Of a DNA stretch of 64,000 nucleotides, positions 52,227 to 61,065 are shown piece by piece. Position numbers and translations under genes: made by a program. Positions within the stretch are counted from its first letter, which is position 1. Each line of letters opens with the position of its first letter. The notes under the pieces were generated by a model. It worked only from the letters and a program-made list of their open reading frames with translations, did no database searches and had not been told where the DNA came from. Source of the DNA: Armatimonadota bacterium (lineage in GTDB: Bacteria; Armatimonadota; HRBIN16); assembly GCA_026003175.1 (NCBI GenBank), contig BPGT01000005.1, forward strand, positions 124,001-188,000, written 5' to 3'.

Positions 52227-52255
52227 TTGATTTTTTGAATATCAGGCGTTACAAT
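52227..52255 (+). promoter_or_regulatory. Promoter of the small-protein/pseudopilin cluster
   Basis: TTGATT, 17-bp spacer, TACAAT, inside a markedly AT-rich stretch (52180-52260) unlike the rest of the window. Confidence 0.5.
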
Positions 52256-52358
52256 ATGAAACACGAACGCCGGATACGGTGTCTGTATACAGTGGACAGG
52301 GCAGGTAGAAGATGTGAGTTTCAGGCTGCCCAGAGGCGTGATGAACAGGAGGTCCGTG

Positions 52359-52550
52359 ATGCAAGCAGTGTTGGAGAGAGAGCAACAGCAGTTGAACCGT
52401 GCACCACTAAGAGCACCTGTACGGTTGCAAGCGGAGAATTGGCTGTTCCTGTGTGACCGATGCGGTCAGCCTATCACCTACGATGAGCCTCTGCAGGTGA
52501 ACTGCAACGGCAGCGATATGGAGGTAACCCATCTTCAATGCCAGTGCTAA
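52359..52550 (+). CDS. Small zinc-binding hypothetical protein
   Basis: A 63-residue protein with LFLCDRCGQPITYDEPL near the middle and HLQCQC at the end; the four to five cysteines and a His probably hold one zinc. No known family recognised. The ATG at 52359 follows AGGAGG by 6 bases; in-frame starts further upstream have no site. It is the first gene after the cluster promoter. Confidence 0.6.
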   Translation: MQAVLEREQQQLNRAPLRAPVRLQAENWLFLCDRCGQPITYDEPLQVNCNGSDMEVTHLQCQC

Positions 52551-52586
52551 CGTGGCATGAACATCTGCGTGATAAGGAGCACAACA

Positions 52587-53006
52587 ATGCGACTGGCACG
52601 CGAAACATGGCTCTTGCTGGCTATCGGTTTGGTAGACCTGGCAAGCACGCTCTACCTGATACACAGGGGTCTGGCGCGAGAAGCCAATCCGGTGATGGCG
52701 TGGTACCTTGTCCACTTCGGCGTCTGGGCTTTCTGTGCTGCCAAAACCACCATGCTGGTCTGCCCGCTGGTGATATTGGAGTGGGCTCGGCGCATCAAGC
52801 CGTATCTGGGATTGTGGGCGTTGCGAATCGCGCTGGTGGGTTACCTGTTCGTCTACTTCGGCGTCGTGTGGCGCGCAAACGAAGCGCACATCGAGTGCAT
52901 TACCGGTGCGTACCTGTGCCGCATTAGCCGACTCTGGCAGCAACGGTCGAAGCCCTCCGTACCTGTCGATCAGCACCACAGACCGATGATGATGCCCATC
53001 GAGTAG
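52587..53006 (+). CDS. DUF5658-like small membrane protein
   Basis: A 139-residue protein with four membrane segments. The first segment holds VDLASTLYLIHRGLAREANPVMAWYL, which matches the DUF5658 pattern (D-x3-T-x9-E-x-NP). The function of the family is unknown. SD AAGGAG lies 6 bases before the ATG at 52587. It follows the small zinc protein after 36 bp. The His/Met-rich end (DQHHRPMMMP) could bind metal, which is speculative. Confidence 0.7.
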   Translation: MRLARETWLLLAIGLVDLASTLYLIHRGLAREANPVMAWYLVHFGVWAFCAAKTTMLVCPLVILEWARRIKPYLGLWALRIALVGYLFVYFGVVWRANEAHIECITGAYLCRISRLWQQRSKPSVPVDQHHRPMMMPIE

Positions 53007-53135
53007 GGTTCCTTCATGTCGTTCCACAGAAACCCCATCACTTCAACGGTGTTTATCATGCTATTTTACCGAATACCCCGTTCTTTTGTCGTACAAATGC
53101 CTTCCTGGGTGCAATATACAAGATGGTGAGTTGGG

Positions 53136-53822
53136 ATGCGTACAGAAGCACACCGTAACGACAAAACCTCACTGGCTTTGGCGTGCCTTCTTTTTCTGGC
53201 AAGCGTGCTCCTGCTCAGCTGGGCGATCTTCCCCCATCTTCCTCAACAGGTCGCGCGGGCACTGCGCGAGCGTTCCCTGCAAAAACAACGGGCGGAGATA
53301 CGCCGTCTGCTGGCTCGTGACCCCAAGCCAGGGCAAACCATGCCTGCTATCGCCAGCGACCTTTTCGGACGCCCCCTTCCCAAGGCAACGCAGAGGTACA
53401 TCGCATTCGTGGGTATGGTCAGCGAGCGCCATTTTGCCAGAGTGACAGCGTGGCTTCAGCAGGAAACTTCAGACCGCAGCGCGAAGTGGGTAGTGGTTGG
53501 CATCGGGAAGCAGGAAGATTTACGAAAACTGCAGGAGCATTTGGGCGCCAGGTCGCGCGTGGTGCGGGACGCGGATGGCAAACTGCACCGGCAATGGAAC
53601 GCGGTGTTGCTGCCTCGGGTGTATGAGGTAGATGCCACGTGGCGTTTGAAAAGGATAACCCGTCCCTCCGGTGGCTGCGGTGGGGGATGCGGTGGATGCG
53701 GAGGTGGTTCAGATGAGACCGGTTCGCGCGTTCACTCTGGTGGAGATGCTGGTGGTGCTGGCGATCATCGCCGTGCTGGTGGCGCTGCTGCTTGGAGGTA
53801 TTCAATTGACGAGGCGACATAG
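53136..53822 (+). CDS. Membrane-anchored redoxin-like protein with Gly-Cys tail
   Basis: A 228-residue protein. Residues 12-34 form a membrane anchor. The middle (about 65-172) has the outline of a thioredoxin/TlpA fold (SDLFGRPLPKATQRYIAFVG, then VVRDADGKLHRQWNAV and PRVYEVDATWRLK), but the redox CxxC site is missing. The C-terminus holds GGCGGGCGGCGGGSD, then 36 residues encoded in another frame over the start of pseudopilin 1. Those last residues look like a shadow of the pilin, so the original stop may have been lost when the pilin cassette was placed here. Ribosome site is weak (GGTGAG). Confidence 0.6.
   Translation: MRTEAHRNDKTSLALACLLFLASVLLLSWAIFPHLPQQVARALRERSLQKQRAEIRRLLARDPKPGQTMPAIASDLFGRPLPKATQRYIAFVGMVSERHFARVTAWLQQETSDRSAKWVVVGIGKQEDLRKLQEHLGARSRVVRDADGKLHRQWNAVLLPRVYEVDATWRLKRITRPSGGCGGGCGGCGGGSDETGSRVHSGGDAGGAGDHRRAGGAAAWRYSIDEAT
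53694..53787 (+). repeat. 94-bp direct repeat, copy 1
   Basis: Pairs with 54814-54907 with three mismatches. It covers the ribosome site and the first 25 codons of pseudopilin 1 and the end of the Gly-Cys tail. Similarity stops abruptly at 53787. Confidence 0.9.
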
Positions 53823-54282
53823 CAACCGTACAACATGCGCCAGCAACATGCGTCAGCTGGTCATCGCCCTCAAGATGTACGACGAGGCATGGGGCGGACC
53901 ACCACCATTGAAAGTCGCCTTTTATTCCTGGGATGAGGTGCAGCCTGAGATCAAACCGGTGCTGTTGTGTCCCAACGACTACACCAGAGGGGAATACTGG
54001 CCGCACGGAGCAAAGCGCAAGCCTGAGTTAGTGCGCACTTCCTACTGGTTCCATTTTACGCATGAGATCCTCGAGTGTTCTGGCTGGGCACCGTTGCCAG
54101 ACTCGGAGCGCATCTGGTTCCGATGCGATTGGTGTATTGGAAGGCACCGGGGTGTGCACGCCTACGCCGATGGGCATGTTGCCCCAGAAGGCCCGTATGA
54201 GATGGATTTGAGCCACGAAATGGCTTACAGGTATAAGCTCGAAAAGGCATGTAAGGGCCGTCCCAAAACTATCGCCTTTTGA
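53713..54282 (+). CDS. Type II/IV pseudopilin 1, ADGH type
   Basis: A 189-residue pseudopilin. The short leader is followed by the prepilin peptidase motif, FTLVEMLVVLAIIAVLVALL, with Glu at +5. The globular part has conserved SNMRQLVIALKMYDE and LLCPND, and ends with VHAYADGHVAP, matching the H-x9-DG type seen in Planctomycetota and Armatimonadota. It contains six cysteines. GGAGGTGG lies 5 bases before the ATG. A 14-cysteine secreted protein gene follows after 25 bp. Confidence 0.88.
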   Translation: MRPVRAFTLVEMLVVLAIIAVLVALLLGGIQLTRRHSNRTTCASNMRQLVIALKMYDEAWGGPPPLKVAFYSWDEVQPEIKPVLLCPNDYTRGEYWPHGAKRKPELVRTSYWFHFTHEILECSGWAPLPDSERIWFRCDWCIGRHRGVHAYADGHVAPEGPYEMDLSHEMAYRYKLEKACKGRPKTIAF

Positions 54283-54307
54283 CGCCTGAAAAGGGGAGGC
54301 GAACACA

Positions 54308-54727
54308 ATGAGCAGGCGTATGGCAAGGTTAGTAGCCTTCTGGTTTATTCTGGCAGTGTTCGCGACGTGGGTAGCTGCCACCAACGCGCGAGAAACAACT
54401 ACGCCAACATCCGTCGGTATAACACCGCAGCAGGTGTATGGTGATGCGTGCCCTAACACCTGTCCACCATTAGATGAGTGTTCAGAATGGTGGTACGAGG
54501 GCCGCTACTCTTATGACTGCTGCAGGTGGGACTGGGGGTGCTGGCTGAATCCCCGTGAGCCCAATTACCAATTGAAGCTTTGCACAAGAGGACACTTCAC
54601 TTGCCGATGGTATGATTATCCCGGTGGCGGTTATATCCTGATCCGCTGTTGCGATGAGGGCGCGAGCTGCCAAGAAGTGAACGGATGGCCATGCTGTCAC
54701 CCGCTGAATAACGTGATCTGTCCGTGA
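54308..54727 (+). CDS. Secreted 14-cysteine protein 1
   Basis: A 139-residue protein with a signal peptide (about 1-28, ending ATNA). The mature part has 14 cysteines in the order CPxTC, C, CC, GCW, C, C, CC, C, CC, CP-end, enough for seven disulfides, and many Trp (SEWWYEG, CCRWDWGCW). Spacing is matched by the protein at 55483. The stretch GGGYILIRCCDEG faintly recalls the light chain of methylamine dehydrogenase; this is weak. Family not recognised. GGGGAGG precedes the ATG. Confidence 0.75.
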   Translation: MSRRMARLVAFWFILAVFATWVAATNARETTTPTSVGITPQQVYGDACPNTCPPLDECSEWWYEGRYSYDCCRWDWGCWLNPREPNYQLKLCTRGHFTCRWYDYPGGGYILIRCCDEGASCQEVNGWPCCHPLNNVICP

Positions 54728-54813
54728 TGCGATGTTTGGGGCGGGCGGCGTTTGCCGCCCGCCGGTTATAGGAGGGGAAATGCAATGGATATGAGGTAAG
54801 TTCCGCGTGGGGA

Positions 54814-54907
54814 GGATGCGGAGGTGGTTCAGATGAGACTGGTTCGCGCGTTCACTCTGGTGGAGATGCTGGTGGTGCTGGCGATCATCGCCGCGCTGGT
54901 GGCGTTG
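54814..54907 (+). repeat. 94-bp direct repeat, copy 2
   Basis: Partner of 53694-53787; three mismatches. It contains the ribosome site and first 25 codons of pseudopilin 2 plus a fossil of the Gly-Cys tail (WGGCGGGSDE in the shifted frame). Confidence 0.9.
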
Positions 54908-55411
54908 ATACTGGGAGTGGTGCAGTTAGGGCGTCGGTATGCCTATCGGGGCACATGCATGAGCAACATGAGGCAGCTGGTGGCGGCGGTAAAGATGTAC
55001 TACGACGGTCACGATGTACCTCCCATGTATACCGGTTATCGTACCCCCATTACCGGTCGCCAGCTGGTACAGATGTGGGATAGGGTCCAACCCGGTGTGG
55101 CGAAACTCCTGCTTTGTCCCTCCGATCCATATCACGGAGTCATGTACCGCTGGTGTCCTGAGGTCAAGCCGCGTGAGCCAACTGTACCGGTGAGCTCATA
55201 TCAGCTGGATTATCTGCACGAATGGATTCAGTGCGAAGGTAGATGGTCGCCTCAGTCGGAATCGGAGCGTATGTGGTTCAATTGCTTCTGGCATTCGGGA
55301 TGCACATTTCCGCGAAGTAAGGTGACGGCATTTGCTGACGGTCACGTCAAAGTGATATCTAGTGGGGAGTATAACCGCTACATAGAACTGCTCGACAAAG
55401 CATGCCCATGA
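54833..55411 (+). CDS. Type II/IV pseudopilin 2, ADGH type
   Basis: A 192-residue paralog of pseudopilin 1. The N-terminus (RLVRAFTLVEMLVVLAII) is nearly identical, also in DNA, while the globular part is very different apart from SNMRQLVAAVKMY, LLCPSDPYHG, SERMWFNCFW and VTAFADGHVK. Six cysteines are present. GGAGGTGG lies 5 bases before the ATG. It precedes the second 14-cysteine gene. Confidence 0.88.
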   Translation: MRLVRAFTLVEMLVVLAIIAALVALILGVVQLGRRYAYRGTCMSNMRQLVAAVKMYYDGHDVPPMYTGYRTPITGRQLVQMWDRVQPGVAKLLLCPSDPYHGVMYRWCPEVKPREPTVPVSSYQLDYLHEWIQCEGRWSPQSESERMWFNCFWHSGCTFPRSKVTAFADGHVKVISSGEYNRYIELLDKACP

Positions 55412-55482
55412 GGAGGCTACCGAGACAGGCAGAGTTTTGCCCCTGTCTGATACTCCTCATTTTGAGAGAAGGAGGGATTGCG

Positions 55483-55936
55483 ATGAGAAAGAACCGTGTG
55501 CATTTGGGCTGGCTGTTTACAGTATGGCTAGTGCTAGCCACCCTTGCCGTTCTGGCAGTGGGTGAGGTGGCTCGGTCGTCCCCCACTAGCGCATCCTCAC
55601 AGCCCCTCGTGTATCGCTACGACGGATGCCCGGACACGTGCCTGAGTTCAGCTCCATGTCCTCCTCCCGGATGGCGTATCCATCGAGAAGGGGCGCTGTA
55701 CTATTGCTGTGTACCGGACCTGGGCTGTTGGGCTAACCCTCAGGAGCCGGATTTTCAAAAAGCGCCTTGCAAACGGGATGTCTACATTTGCCGCGGGGGG
55801 TGAACCGGCGGGGGTTCGACAGCGCGCCGAGCCGCAGTCTATACCTACCAGGTACTGTTGCTCCCAGTACTATCAGTGCGGAGAAGAAGATGGGCAACCC
55901 TGCTGTGAGCCGAGAAACGACGTAGCGTGCCCATGA
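55483..55936 (+). pseudogene. Secreted 14-cysteine protein 2, split by a one-base frameshift
   Basis: The first frame (55483-55803) gives a signal peptide and eight cysteines, ending at YICRGG. Removing one G from the six at 55795-55800 continues into RYCCSQYYQCGEEDGQPCCEPRNDVACP-type sequence, ending at 55936. The repaired 150-residue protein has exactly 14 cysteines with the same order as the protein at 54308, so selection has kept the distal part. The break is therefore recent, an artefact, or read by slippage. SD AAGGAGG lies 7 bases before the ATG. Confidence 0.75.
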
Positions 55937-55997
55937 AGCCCAGTGTTGGCGGGCGGCGTTTGCCGCCTGCTGTTTACAGGAAGGGGAGAAAAGCAGG

Positions 55998-56531
55998 ATG
56001 GACATCGCGATGCTGAACGAAGTGGTACAAAAAGCCCTCCGCAAAGCGTATCGCTGGCAAACCCCAGGCAACTGGAGCACTGCTGAGTGGCGGGAGGAGC
56101 TGGTGGGCGTTGCCTACCTTGCTTGTCTGGAGGCAGAGGGTGAGTACGACCCTGCGCAGGGACCGTCGCTGCAGCATTACCTGCTGCAACGCACGCTGTC
56201 TGCTCTGCTCAGCCATTATCGCAGAGAGTGGAGGTTTGCCTCACGGTGTACCTGCCTCGACGCTGTTGGTCCTAACGACAAACTAAACACCGCCCCGCCG
56301 GACCCGCCCGACCCTGAATCAGCTGCCTTTGTCAACCGGGTGTGCCTTTCGGTAGATGTTCGCCGTGCCCTGTCCAGTCTCACTGCCCGCGAGCGACAGG
56401 TGCTGATGATGGTCTTCTGGGATGGCATGAGTGAACGCGATATTGCTGCAAGGACAGGCGTCGCGCTATCCACTGTGTGCGTGTATAAAGATCGCGCCCT
56501 GCGCAAGCTACGCAGGGCGATTGGATATTAA
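55998..56531 (+). CDS. Sigma70-family RNA polymerase sigma factor
   Basis: A 177-residue sigma factor with regions 2 and 4 only. Region 2 is degenerate (WREELVGVAYLACLEAEGEYDP), like the non-canonical ECF group; region 4 is clear: LTARERQVLMMVFWDGMSERDIAARTGV... VYKDRALRKLRRAI. No anti-sigma gene is next to it. It lies about 60 bp downstream of the second 14-cysteine gene in the same direction and may control the cluster. GGGGAG lies about 9 bases before the ATG. Confidence 0.82.
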   Translation: MDIAMLNEVVQKALRKAYRWQTPGNWSTAEWREELVGVAYLACLEAEGEYDPAQGPSLQHYLLQRTLSALLSHYRREWRFASRCTCLDAVGPNDKLNTAPPDPPDPESAAFVNRVCLSVDVRRALSSLTARERQVLMMVFWDGMSERDIAARTGVALSTVCVYKDRALRKLRRAIGY

Positions 56532-59729: not shown

Positions 59730-59915
59730 GAGGGTGTTCGAGAATTGTTGAGAAGTTGGTTGTAGCGCAAGGAGAGAGGCGTTCTTGCTATCCCTGCCTT
59801 ACCTCACCCCCGTCCCCTCTCCTACGAGGAGAGGGGCGTTCCCCCTTCCCTTGCAGGGAAGGGGGCAAGGGGGTTAGGTTATCTACCCATTCAACCAGCA
59901 ATTTCGAACACCCTC
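59730..59915. mobile_element. 186-bp MITE, copy B
   Basis: Almost identical to the copy at 40813 (one difference noticed, TACC for TATC near the right end). Left flank is CCACCCCCT, right flank GTTCCATCT, so its own target duplication does not match. Before it, at 59711-59720, is another inverted end (GAACACCCTC) without its partner. Confidence 0.95.
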
Positions 59916-59924
59916 GTTCCATCT

Positions 59925-60110
59925 GAGGGTGTTCGAGAATTGTTGAGAAGTTGGTTGTAGCGCAAGGAGAGAGGCGTTCTTGCTATCCCTGCCTTACCTC
60001 ACCCCCGTCCCCTCTCCTACGAGGAGAGGGGCGTTCCCCCTTCCCTTGCAGGGAAGGGGGCAAGGGGGTTAGGTTATCTATCCATTCAACCAGCAATTTC
60101 GAACACCCTC
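59925..60110. mobile_element. 186-bp MITE, copy C
   Basis: Same orientation as copy B, nine bases after it. Left flank GTTCCATCT, right flank CCACCCCCT. Taken together, B and C are bounded by CCACCCCCT on the outside and share GTTCCATCT inside, which fits recombination between elements rather than two simple insertions. Confidence 0.95.
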
Positions 60111-61065
60111 CCACCCCCTGAGGGTGTTCGAAAAATCGCATAGACCCCACACCCACCACCAACACACAAAACAACCGCTACCAGCCACCTGCACCACACC
60201 CACCATGTTCCACAACACAAACATGCCCCACACCCACACCCGTGCAACCACCCACGAACGCGCTCGCCACACACTCCCATAAGCTCCCTTCACACTACCA
60301 AACACCTGCTCTATCCGATAACGCTCCCGCAACGCCCAACCATATGTCTGCGCACGTGCACGCGCACGCAACCGCGCATCCGCACGCACCTGCTGCCACA
60401 CGCCATCCCGAACCACTGCCACAGGCAACCAACCCGCACGCTCCAACGCAACCAATAACTGCGCCCGATAACCATACAACCCGTCCCCAACTAATAAAGT
60501 GCCACACGACAAACCACCAAGCCCATGACGCTCCACCCACTCCCACAACAGACGCCCCTCATCCGCATATGCCCCCCCACACGATAACCCCATCACCCAC
60601 ACCCGACCCCCCTGCCAACACCCCAACGCCACCACCTTCACATGCGACCGCTGCTGACGTACCTGTGCCCCACGCAAATACTGCGCCAAAAACGGTGAGG
60701 CATACCCCACGCCCGTGCCATCCACAAACACACACGGCGTTTCACGGGTCGGTGTCTCTGACGCGATGCCCTGCTGGGCAAGCCAAGTGAGCAGTTGGTG
60801 CAGGCGTTCGTCTGCAAGATGCTGCAACAGGCAGGGGTTGGTCGGGCAGCAGTTCTGGGGCGAGGGCGAACAGTAGGCGTCGGTAGGAGGCGTTTTCGCG
60901 CACTCCCAGCAAGAGGAGGGTGAGGATGAGCGCTTCGGGGTATTTGTAGGGTCGCCCGCGGCGTGGGGGCAGAGGATGGATTTGGCAGAAGCGTTGGACG
61001 ATGGTGAAGATGACCTTCACCGACAGGGTAGTGAGTCTGCTTTGTGGTAGGTATCGTCGTTTCAT
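60078..61065 (-). pseudogene. DDE transposase, two frames
   Basis: The N-terminal frame starts at ATG 61065 (MKRRYLPQSRLTTL) and covers a helix-turn-helix-like region with GRPYKYPEALILTLLLLG. The C-terminal frame carries the DDE residues: D in FVDGTGVGYA, D in LLVGDGLYGY, E in RYRIEQVFGSVKGAYG. It belongs to the DDE_Tnp_1 (IS4/IS5-like) clan. The frames join at CAA CCC CTG (GGGG at 60834-60837 on the plus strand) if one C is skipped, giving PDQPCLLQHLADERL. This CCC-C site could support programmed +1 shifting or be a real break. The frame has no stop inside the IS and runs 42 bases into the neighbouring MITE. Confidence 0.8.

Follow-up and report, generated by a model that had tools for sequence, protein, structure and literature searches.

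A redoxin, pilin and cysteine-rich protein cassette recurs across Armatimonadota and stands in tandem form in one genome

The window studied here is a stretch of 64,000 nucleotides from a 4.1 Mb Armatimonadota genome (source genome G000; G000:C5:124001-188000). It contains a tandem version of a cassette that is conserved in Armatimonadota. Three proteins make up the core of the cassette: a redoxin anchored in the membrane, a short prepilin and a small cysteine-rich protein with a signal. That this core is real and recurring we regard as practically certain. Homologous cassettes are found throughout the phylum, so that the observation goes beyond chance. An earlier note, made from the sequence of the window, had proposed a tandem system. 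Its pairing of a pilin with a cysteine-rich protein does correspond to something undescribed, but the system is wider, extends over the phylum and has the redoxin in its core. On balance, we favour the view that the redoxin folds the cysteine-rich protein oxidatively and that the folded protein then acts with or on its pilin.

Results

A cassette found throughout the phylum

Redoxin alignments were searched against 291 Armatimonadota genomes, the set used for all profile searches, and 80 neighbourhoods were then read (L numbers denote loci extracted from this set). Loci with redoxin, pilin and cysteine-rich genes were found in at least 47 genomes belonging to 10 families. In most of them, the start of the pilin gene overlaps the stop of the redoxin gene by a few bases (-3 bp). 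A pilin lies within 2.6 kb of the redoxin in 77 of 84 redoxin loci. A strict cysteine-rich open reading frame (ORF) is present in 40 of the 84, that is, a same-strand ORF within 2.6 kb and outside any larger ORF, with a signal, at least 8 cysteines and at least 7% cysteine.

The association is specific. Background rates were taken from the flanking DNA of the extracted loci and from 20 other stretches of the source genome. The remaining flanking DNA (283 kb) contains two strict cysteine-rich ORFs, one an antisense-like frame and the other located behind the pilin of a second cassette. A pilin was recognised in 18 of the 20 control stretches, and a credible cysteine-rich neighbour in one, which belongs to the second cassette of the source genome. 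The clean controls comprise 17 stretches with a recognised pilin and two in which the motif missed the pilin. In the second cassette of the source genome (L126), a redoxin and a pilin-like protein are followed, at a distance of about 2 kb, by a pilin and a protein with 9 cysteines. The pilin-like protein (L126 4022-4516) has no prepilin motif and ends with H[TL]xAVCPYCG or similar; the same kind is seen in a family f21 genome (L138 2771-3253).

Several variants of the cassette exist. The order is cysteine-rich gene, pilin, redoxin in a locus (L134) of Chthonomonadia bacterium Ch118 (G001), which belongs to the same genus as the source genome. The cysteine-rich gene precedes the pilin in L081, L092 and others. 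Pilin-like proteins without prepilin motif replace the pilin in L113, L116, L123 and L135. In more than half of the loci, the cassette is followed by a protein with a single transmembrane segment and a stretch resembling AL..GD...L..LA.PEE...LNLT; the window has none. A sigma factor is linked to the cassette in a minority of loci, beside the cassettes of G008 and G007 (same genus) and the distant ones of G187 and G032. The "dedicated" sigma factor of the earlier note is therefore plausible within this genus but not general.

Pieces of Rhs/YD-repeat genes flank cassettes in G001 and in two family f29 genomes (L009 7806-8705, L078 7444-7704 and L025 1-240). In L078, the piece stands behind the pilin, where the cysteine-rich gene would be expected.

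The tandem cassette of the window

The genes at the site are the following (window positions, strand).

53136..53712, +, redoxin, ResA/TlpA-like, membrane-anchored, without CxxC, with a GGCGGGCGGCGGG tail; the open frame extends into pilin 1 as far as 53822
53713..54282, +, pilin 1, a short prepilin with 6 cysteines, ADGH motif and an N-terminus of the GFTLxE type
54308..54727, +, cysteine-rich secreted protein 1, 139 residues, N-terminal signal, 14 cysteines, core CC-x-W-D-x-GCWLNP
54740..54759, +, GC-rich hairpin 3' of module 1, with only two copies genome-wide
54833..55411, +, pilin 2, 7 cysteines, orthologous to G007's single pilin (74%)
55483..55936, +, cysteine-rich secreted protein 2, with a frameshift in a G6 run (55795-55800), 14 cysteines summed over two frames
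55948..55967, +, the other copy of the GC-rich hairpin
55998..56531, +, sigma-70 factor resembling the extracytoplasmic function (ECF) type
52314..52550, +, small CxxC (zinc) protein, a neighbour at the site judged to lie outside the cassette
52587..53006, +, DUF5658 membrane protein, likewise a neighbour judged to lie outside the cassette

Both modules described in the earlier note are present, each with a pilin and a 14-cysteine protein, and the cysteines follow the same order in the two proteins. Six cysteines had been counted in each pilin; this holds for pilin 1, but pilin 2 has seven. The DUF5658 label was confirmed by Pfam (E 1.7e-12), as was that of the sigma factor, whose regions 2 and 4 both score above the Pfam cut-offs: narrowly for PF04542 (24.2 bits for a cut-off of 24) and by a wide margin for PF08281 and PF04545. 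A hairpin lies 3' of each cysteine-rich gene and its 20-base core is absent from the rest of the source genome. Thus, the duplication appears to span pilin, cysteine-rich gene and hairpin.

Further downstream, two short ORFs at 59756-60121 (MVVAQGERRSCYPCLTSPPSPLLRGEGRSPFPCREG...) are nearly identical, which suggests a tandem repeat. ORFs of this kind are also found beside other loci.

Turnover of the module within the genus

We compared G000 with nine further genomes of the same genus. In G001, G002 and G003, the orthologous site runs from the glycolate-oxidase side to a sugar ABC (ATP-binding cassette) gene with no cassette, and the DUF5658 and zinc protein DNA is retained. A single operon including these two genes was accordingly rejected, and the earlier proposal of one unit with a common promoter for all the genes is not supported. 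Among the nine genomes, only G001 and G008 have homologues of the window cysteine-rich proteins; these genes immediately follow a pilin gene and are on contigs other than that of the orthologous site. The order in G008 is redoxin, pilin, cysteine-rich gene, sigma factor, with frameshifts in the cysteine-rich and redoxin genes. In G001, the redoxin is cut to its Gly/Cys tail; the pilin and the cysteine-rich gene are intact and all 14 cysteines are kept. G007 has no cysteine-rich gene beside its pilin. In G004, which is 94% identical downstream, a scar (L091 6272-6463) joins window positions 53246 and 56450 and fuses the start of the redoxin in frame to the end of the sigma factor (63 residues). 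The deletion apparently occurred at a short repeat (ACAGG...GTCGCGC). G009 carries a remnant of the sigma factor end with an identical right edge.

The pilins also exchange parts. Pilin 1 and pilin 2 are 45% identical across 196 aligned positions. Pilin 1 resembles the G001 and G008 pilins (56-59%), and pilin 2 is orthologous to that of G007 (74%). The N-terminal DNA of the G008 pilin is 92% identical to that of pilin 2 and the remainder matches pilin 1. To judge from this mosaic, modules seem to swap pilin heads and partners. In the window, the two pilin genes are far more alike at their 5' ends (54813-54999 and 53693-53880) than over the remainder. Together with the 92% match of G008 to pilin 2, this likeness suggests that the pilin head has undergone gene conversion. 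Losses, scars and pilin-head exchange indicate that the module turns over fast.

The module is decaying in this genus. A stronger version, in which the locus is a dying remnant that has lost its function, would account for the frameshifts in cysteine-rich gene 2 and in the two G008 genes, the redoxin remnant of G001, the lone pilin of G007, the G004 scar and the sigma remnant of G009. We consider it unlikely. Cysteine-rich gene 1, both pilins and the sigma factor are intact in the window, G001 retains all 14 cysteines, and the frameshifts sit in homopolymer runs and might be assembly errors.

The cysteine-rich proteins

The two cysteine-rich proteins of the window are 38% identical, with all 14 cysteines in register. 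In the second, a TGA stop (55801-55803) comes immediately after the G6 run. Elsewhere in the phylum, profile search gave only marginal matches, but three of these, in G186, G187 and G191 of one distant family, proved to be genuine homologues. These proteins have 108-122 residues, a signal and the core CC-x-[WF]-D-x-GC[WF][LF]NP. Each gene immediately follows a pilin and a redoxin, with a sigma factor also upstream in G187. The earlier note had proposed to judge the pairing by whether homologues have pilin neighbours and whether they belong to a known family: those of the phylum stand directly behind pilins and match no known family, an outcome in favour of the pairing. Its statement that the secreted proteins belong to no recognised family was upheld, as sequence searches of Pfam, NCBIfam, PHROGs and the PDB gave no match for the window proteins. 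The same resources revealed nothing consistent for a set of 55 cysteine-rich proteins, searched singly or together. A relationship with MauA, considered because the mau cluster pairs a redoxin with a cysteine-rich protein, was rejected: none of the 55 members matches the Pfam MauA family at E 0.1. The AlphaFold model of window protein 1 was too poor for a fold search (predicted local distance difference test score, pLDDT, 60). That of a family f12 homologue (L104) is beta-rich (pLDDT 78) and has no structural match in the PDB at E<=0.001.

The 57 proteins collected contain 8-17 cysteines. An even number follows the signal in 50 of them (p = 4e-9, with members treated as independent), which favours disulfides over metal thiolates. 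We could not find a recurrent CxxC, CxxxC or His-Met arrangement among them. Only the cysteines are conserved among the families, and a genome may carry several dissimilar copies.

Such divergence, together with frequent loss and breakage, is reminiscent of conflict genes. The cysteine-rich protein could then be a diffusible antimicrobial or toxin-like product, matured by the redoxin and expelled by a secretion pseudopilus that uses the pilin. Bacteriocin clusters with dedicated oxidoreductases are known, such as that of TMcin with tmcD (PMC13252029). We nevertheless hold this explanation to be quite unlikely: no immunity gene was recognised, a mature size of about 70-120 residues is large for such peptides, and bacteriocin export is not known to dedicate a pilin to each product.

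The pilins and their partners

Both window pilins have a prepilin cleavage and methylation motif followed by a hydrophobic helix; they score above the Pfam N_methyl cut-off and also pass that of TIGR02532. They remain below threshold for TIGR04294 (H-X9-DG; 11.3 bits for a cut-off of 19) and for PF07596 (DUF1559; 17.2 and 14.5 bits for a cut-off of 23.3). The source genome contains 86 N_methyl loci. For comparison, 79 PulG-type genes are given for Fimbriimonas ginsengisoli in its genome paper (PMC4072686).

The distances between pilin globular domains correlate with those between cysteine-rich proteins when the redoxin is allowed for (partial correlation 0.23, permutation p about 0.002). The corresponding value for redoxin and cysteine-rich protein, allowing for the pilin, is 0.10. 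This difference lends modest support to a partnership of pilin and cysteine-rich protein, and underlies the proposal that the folded protein works with its pilin on the filament.

Redoxin and pilin form the tightest pair, in gene spacing (the -3 bp overlap) as well as in distances (partial correlation 0.31), and some pairs have no cysteine-rich gene. The redoxin might therefore act on pilin disulfides, in a manner similar to DsbA and ComGC, the cysteine-rich protein being a separate exported protein that shares the operon by chance. A reference title within PMC13252029 has DsbA needed for ComGC display in Staphylococcus aureus. Several observations make this unlikely. Cassette pilins often have 2-4 cysteines only, versus 8-17 in the product of the third gene. 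The other pilin loci examined in the source genome, with 3-10 cysteines each, have no cysteine-rich neighbour, and no redoxin was seen at them. Finally, the cysteine-rich gene lies behind the pilin with a consistency that chance does not explain.

The redoxin

Search of the PDB with the redoxin profile (A7) revealed ResA (2.6e-5). One cassette redoxin (L082) matches AhpC-TSA above the cut-off (8.7e-9); the window redoxin searched alone reaches AhpC-TSA_2 at 0.013 only, below the cut-off. CxxC is kept in 56 of the 75 redoxins readable at that site, and one of its two cysteines remains in the family f29 redoxins and some others. The window copy has neither: as the earlier note had said, its ORF (53136-53822) contains no CxxC within the fold. 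The cassette redoxin is thus normally a CxxC protein, to which the window copy is the degenerate exception. A C-terminal Gly/Cys tail is common to the redoxins of the window (GGCGGGCGGCGGG), G008 (GGCAEGCGGCGGS) and G007 (GGCTEGCGGCGGG) and to the G001 remnant (RGCGGCTGCGGD). As a guess, the tail cysteines may substitute for the lost CxxC. The stop of the window redoxin is displaced, its frame overrunning the start of pilin 1; in G008, the redoxin ends with GCGGCGGS and a stop just 5' of the pilin ATG. One cassette redoxin, searched against plasmids, gave no match.

In several family f12 and f28 genomes, the cassette redoxin is closely preceded by a second thioredoxin-like gene, which has a CxCxxC motif (CGCEPC-type; L113 4943-5338, L137 791-1144, L139 5111-5608 and L140 4815-5231).

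It is very unlikely that the cysteine-rich protein binds a metal such as copper, with the redoxin keeping its thiols reduced for loading and the pilin as surface anchor: the redoxin is indeed related to ResA, a reductant, but even cysteine counts favour disulfides and no recurrent metal-site arrangement is seen.

Discussion

We favour oxidative folding of the cysteine-rich protein by the cassette redoxin, followed by action with or on the pilin. The prepilin would be exported via the prepilin peptidase path and the cysteine-rich protein separately, via its signal peptide (Sec). The redoxin would form or proofread the 4-8 disulfides of the cysteine-rich protein, and perhaps those of the pilin too. 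Once folded, the cysteine-rich protein may bind its partner pilin at the globular domain. A type IV or type II-like filament, with a putative core machinery encoded elsewhere, could then display it or carry it outward.

Several points weigh against this view. Loci were picked by redoxin score, so that the cassette frequencies (77 and 40 of 84) are biased estimates, and certain redoxin-pilin pairs have no detected cysteine-rich gene. The correlation of 0.23 is corrected for relatedness through the redoxin alone. Between the window cysteine-rich family (f1 and f29) and the cysteine-rich proteins of other families, hhalign gives a probability of 32%; their putative homology is weak by sequence, and the case for it comes from gene position and the pattern of cysteines. 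Relatives of ResA/TlpA frequently act as reductants rather than as oxidants. As the window redoxin has no catalytic cysteines, its own activity is doubtful.

More tentatively, the cassette may represent a modular surface system of the whole phylum, a possibility that we entertain with reservation. One prepilin would be associated with a fast-diverging, disulfide-locked partner of new fold and a private oxidoreductase, giving exchangeable effectors or adhesins borne by a pilus.

Pilin, redoxin and sigma factor are of known kinds; for their combination and for the cysteine-rich family we found no description. Full-text literature searches returned none of a redoxin-pilin-cysteine-rich cassette, and the excerpted text of the F. 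ginsengisoli genome paper does not mention one (PMC4072686). Armatimonadota carry dozens of prepilin genes with no assigned purpose, and the cassette provides a handle on what some of them do. The cysteine-rich proteins constitute a protein family without known relatives. If the favoured view is true, this is a new case of disulfide folding linked to a type IV filament protein within one operon.

The cassette can be compared with several known systems. In competence pseudopili, the pseudopilin ComGC is served by DsbA/BdbD-type oxidoreductases. The likeness is that a pseudopilin needs a thiol-disulfide oxidoreductase. In contrast, no additional cysteine-rich secreted protein is known in that system, and its enzyme is of the DsbA type and is not known to belong to a recurring pilin-redoxin-cysteine-rich cassette. 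In the mau cluster (methylamine dehydrogenase), the gene of the redoxin MauD adjoins that of the small, cysteine-rich, exported MauA. Here too a redoxin gene lies beside that of a small cysteine-rich exported protein, but mau is not known to include a pilin. The TMcin bacteriocin cluster has a dedicated disulfide enzyme for an exported cysteine-containing product, as in the cassette. It has no pilin, however, and TMcin contains one disulfide and a transmembrane helix (PMC13252029). Prepilins of the H-X9-DG and DUF1559 types share with the window pilins the prepilin N-terminus and an ADGH-like C-terminal motif. The window pilins differ in that they are short, score below the cut-offs of both families and are accompanied by a redoxin and a cysteine-rich partner. 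Finally, the cassette redoxin has in common with ResA/TlpA oxidoreductases an N-terminal membrane anchor, the redoxin fold and, in most copies, CxxC. It differs by its coupling to a pilin and, for the window copy, by a cysteine tail rich in Gly and Cys in a protein without CxxC.

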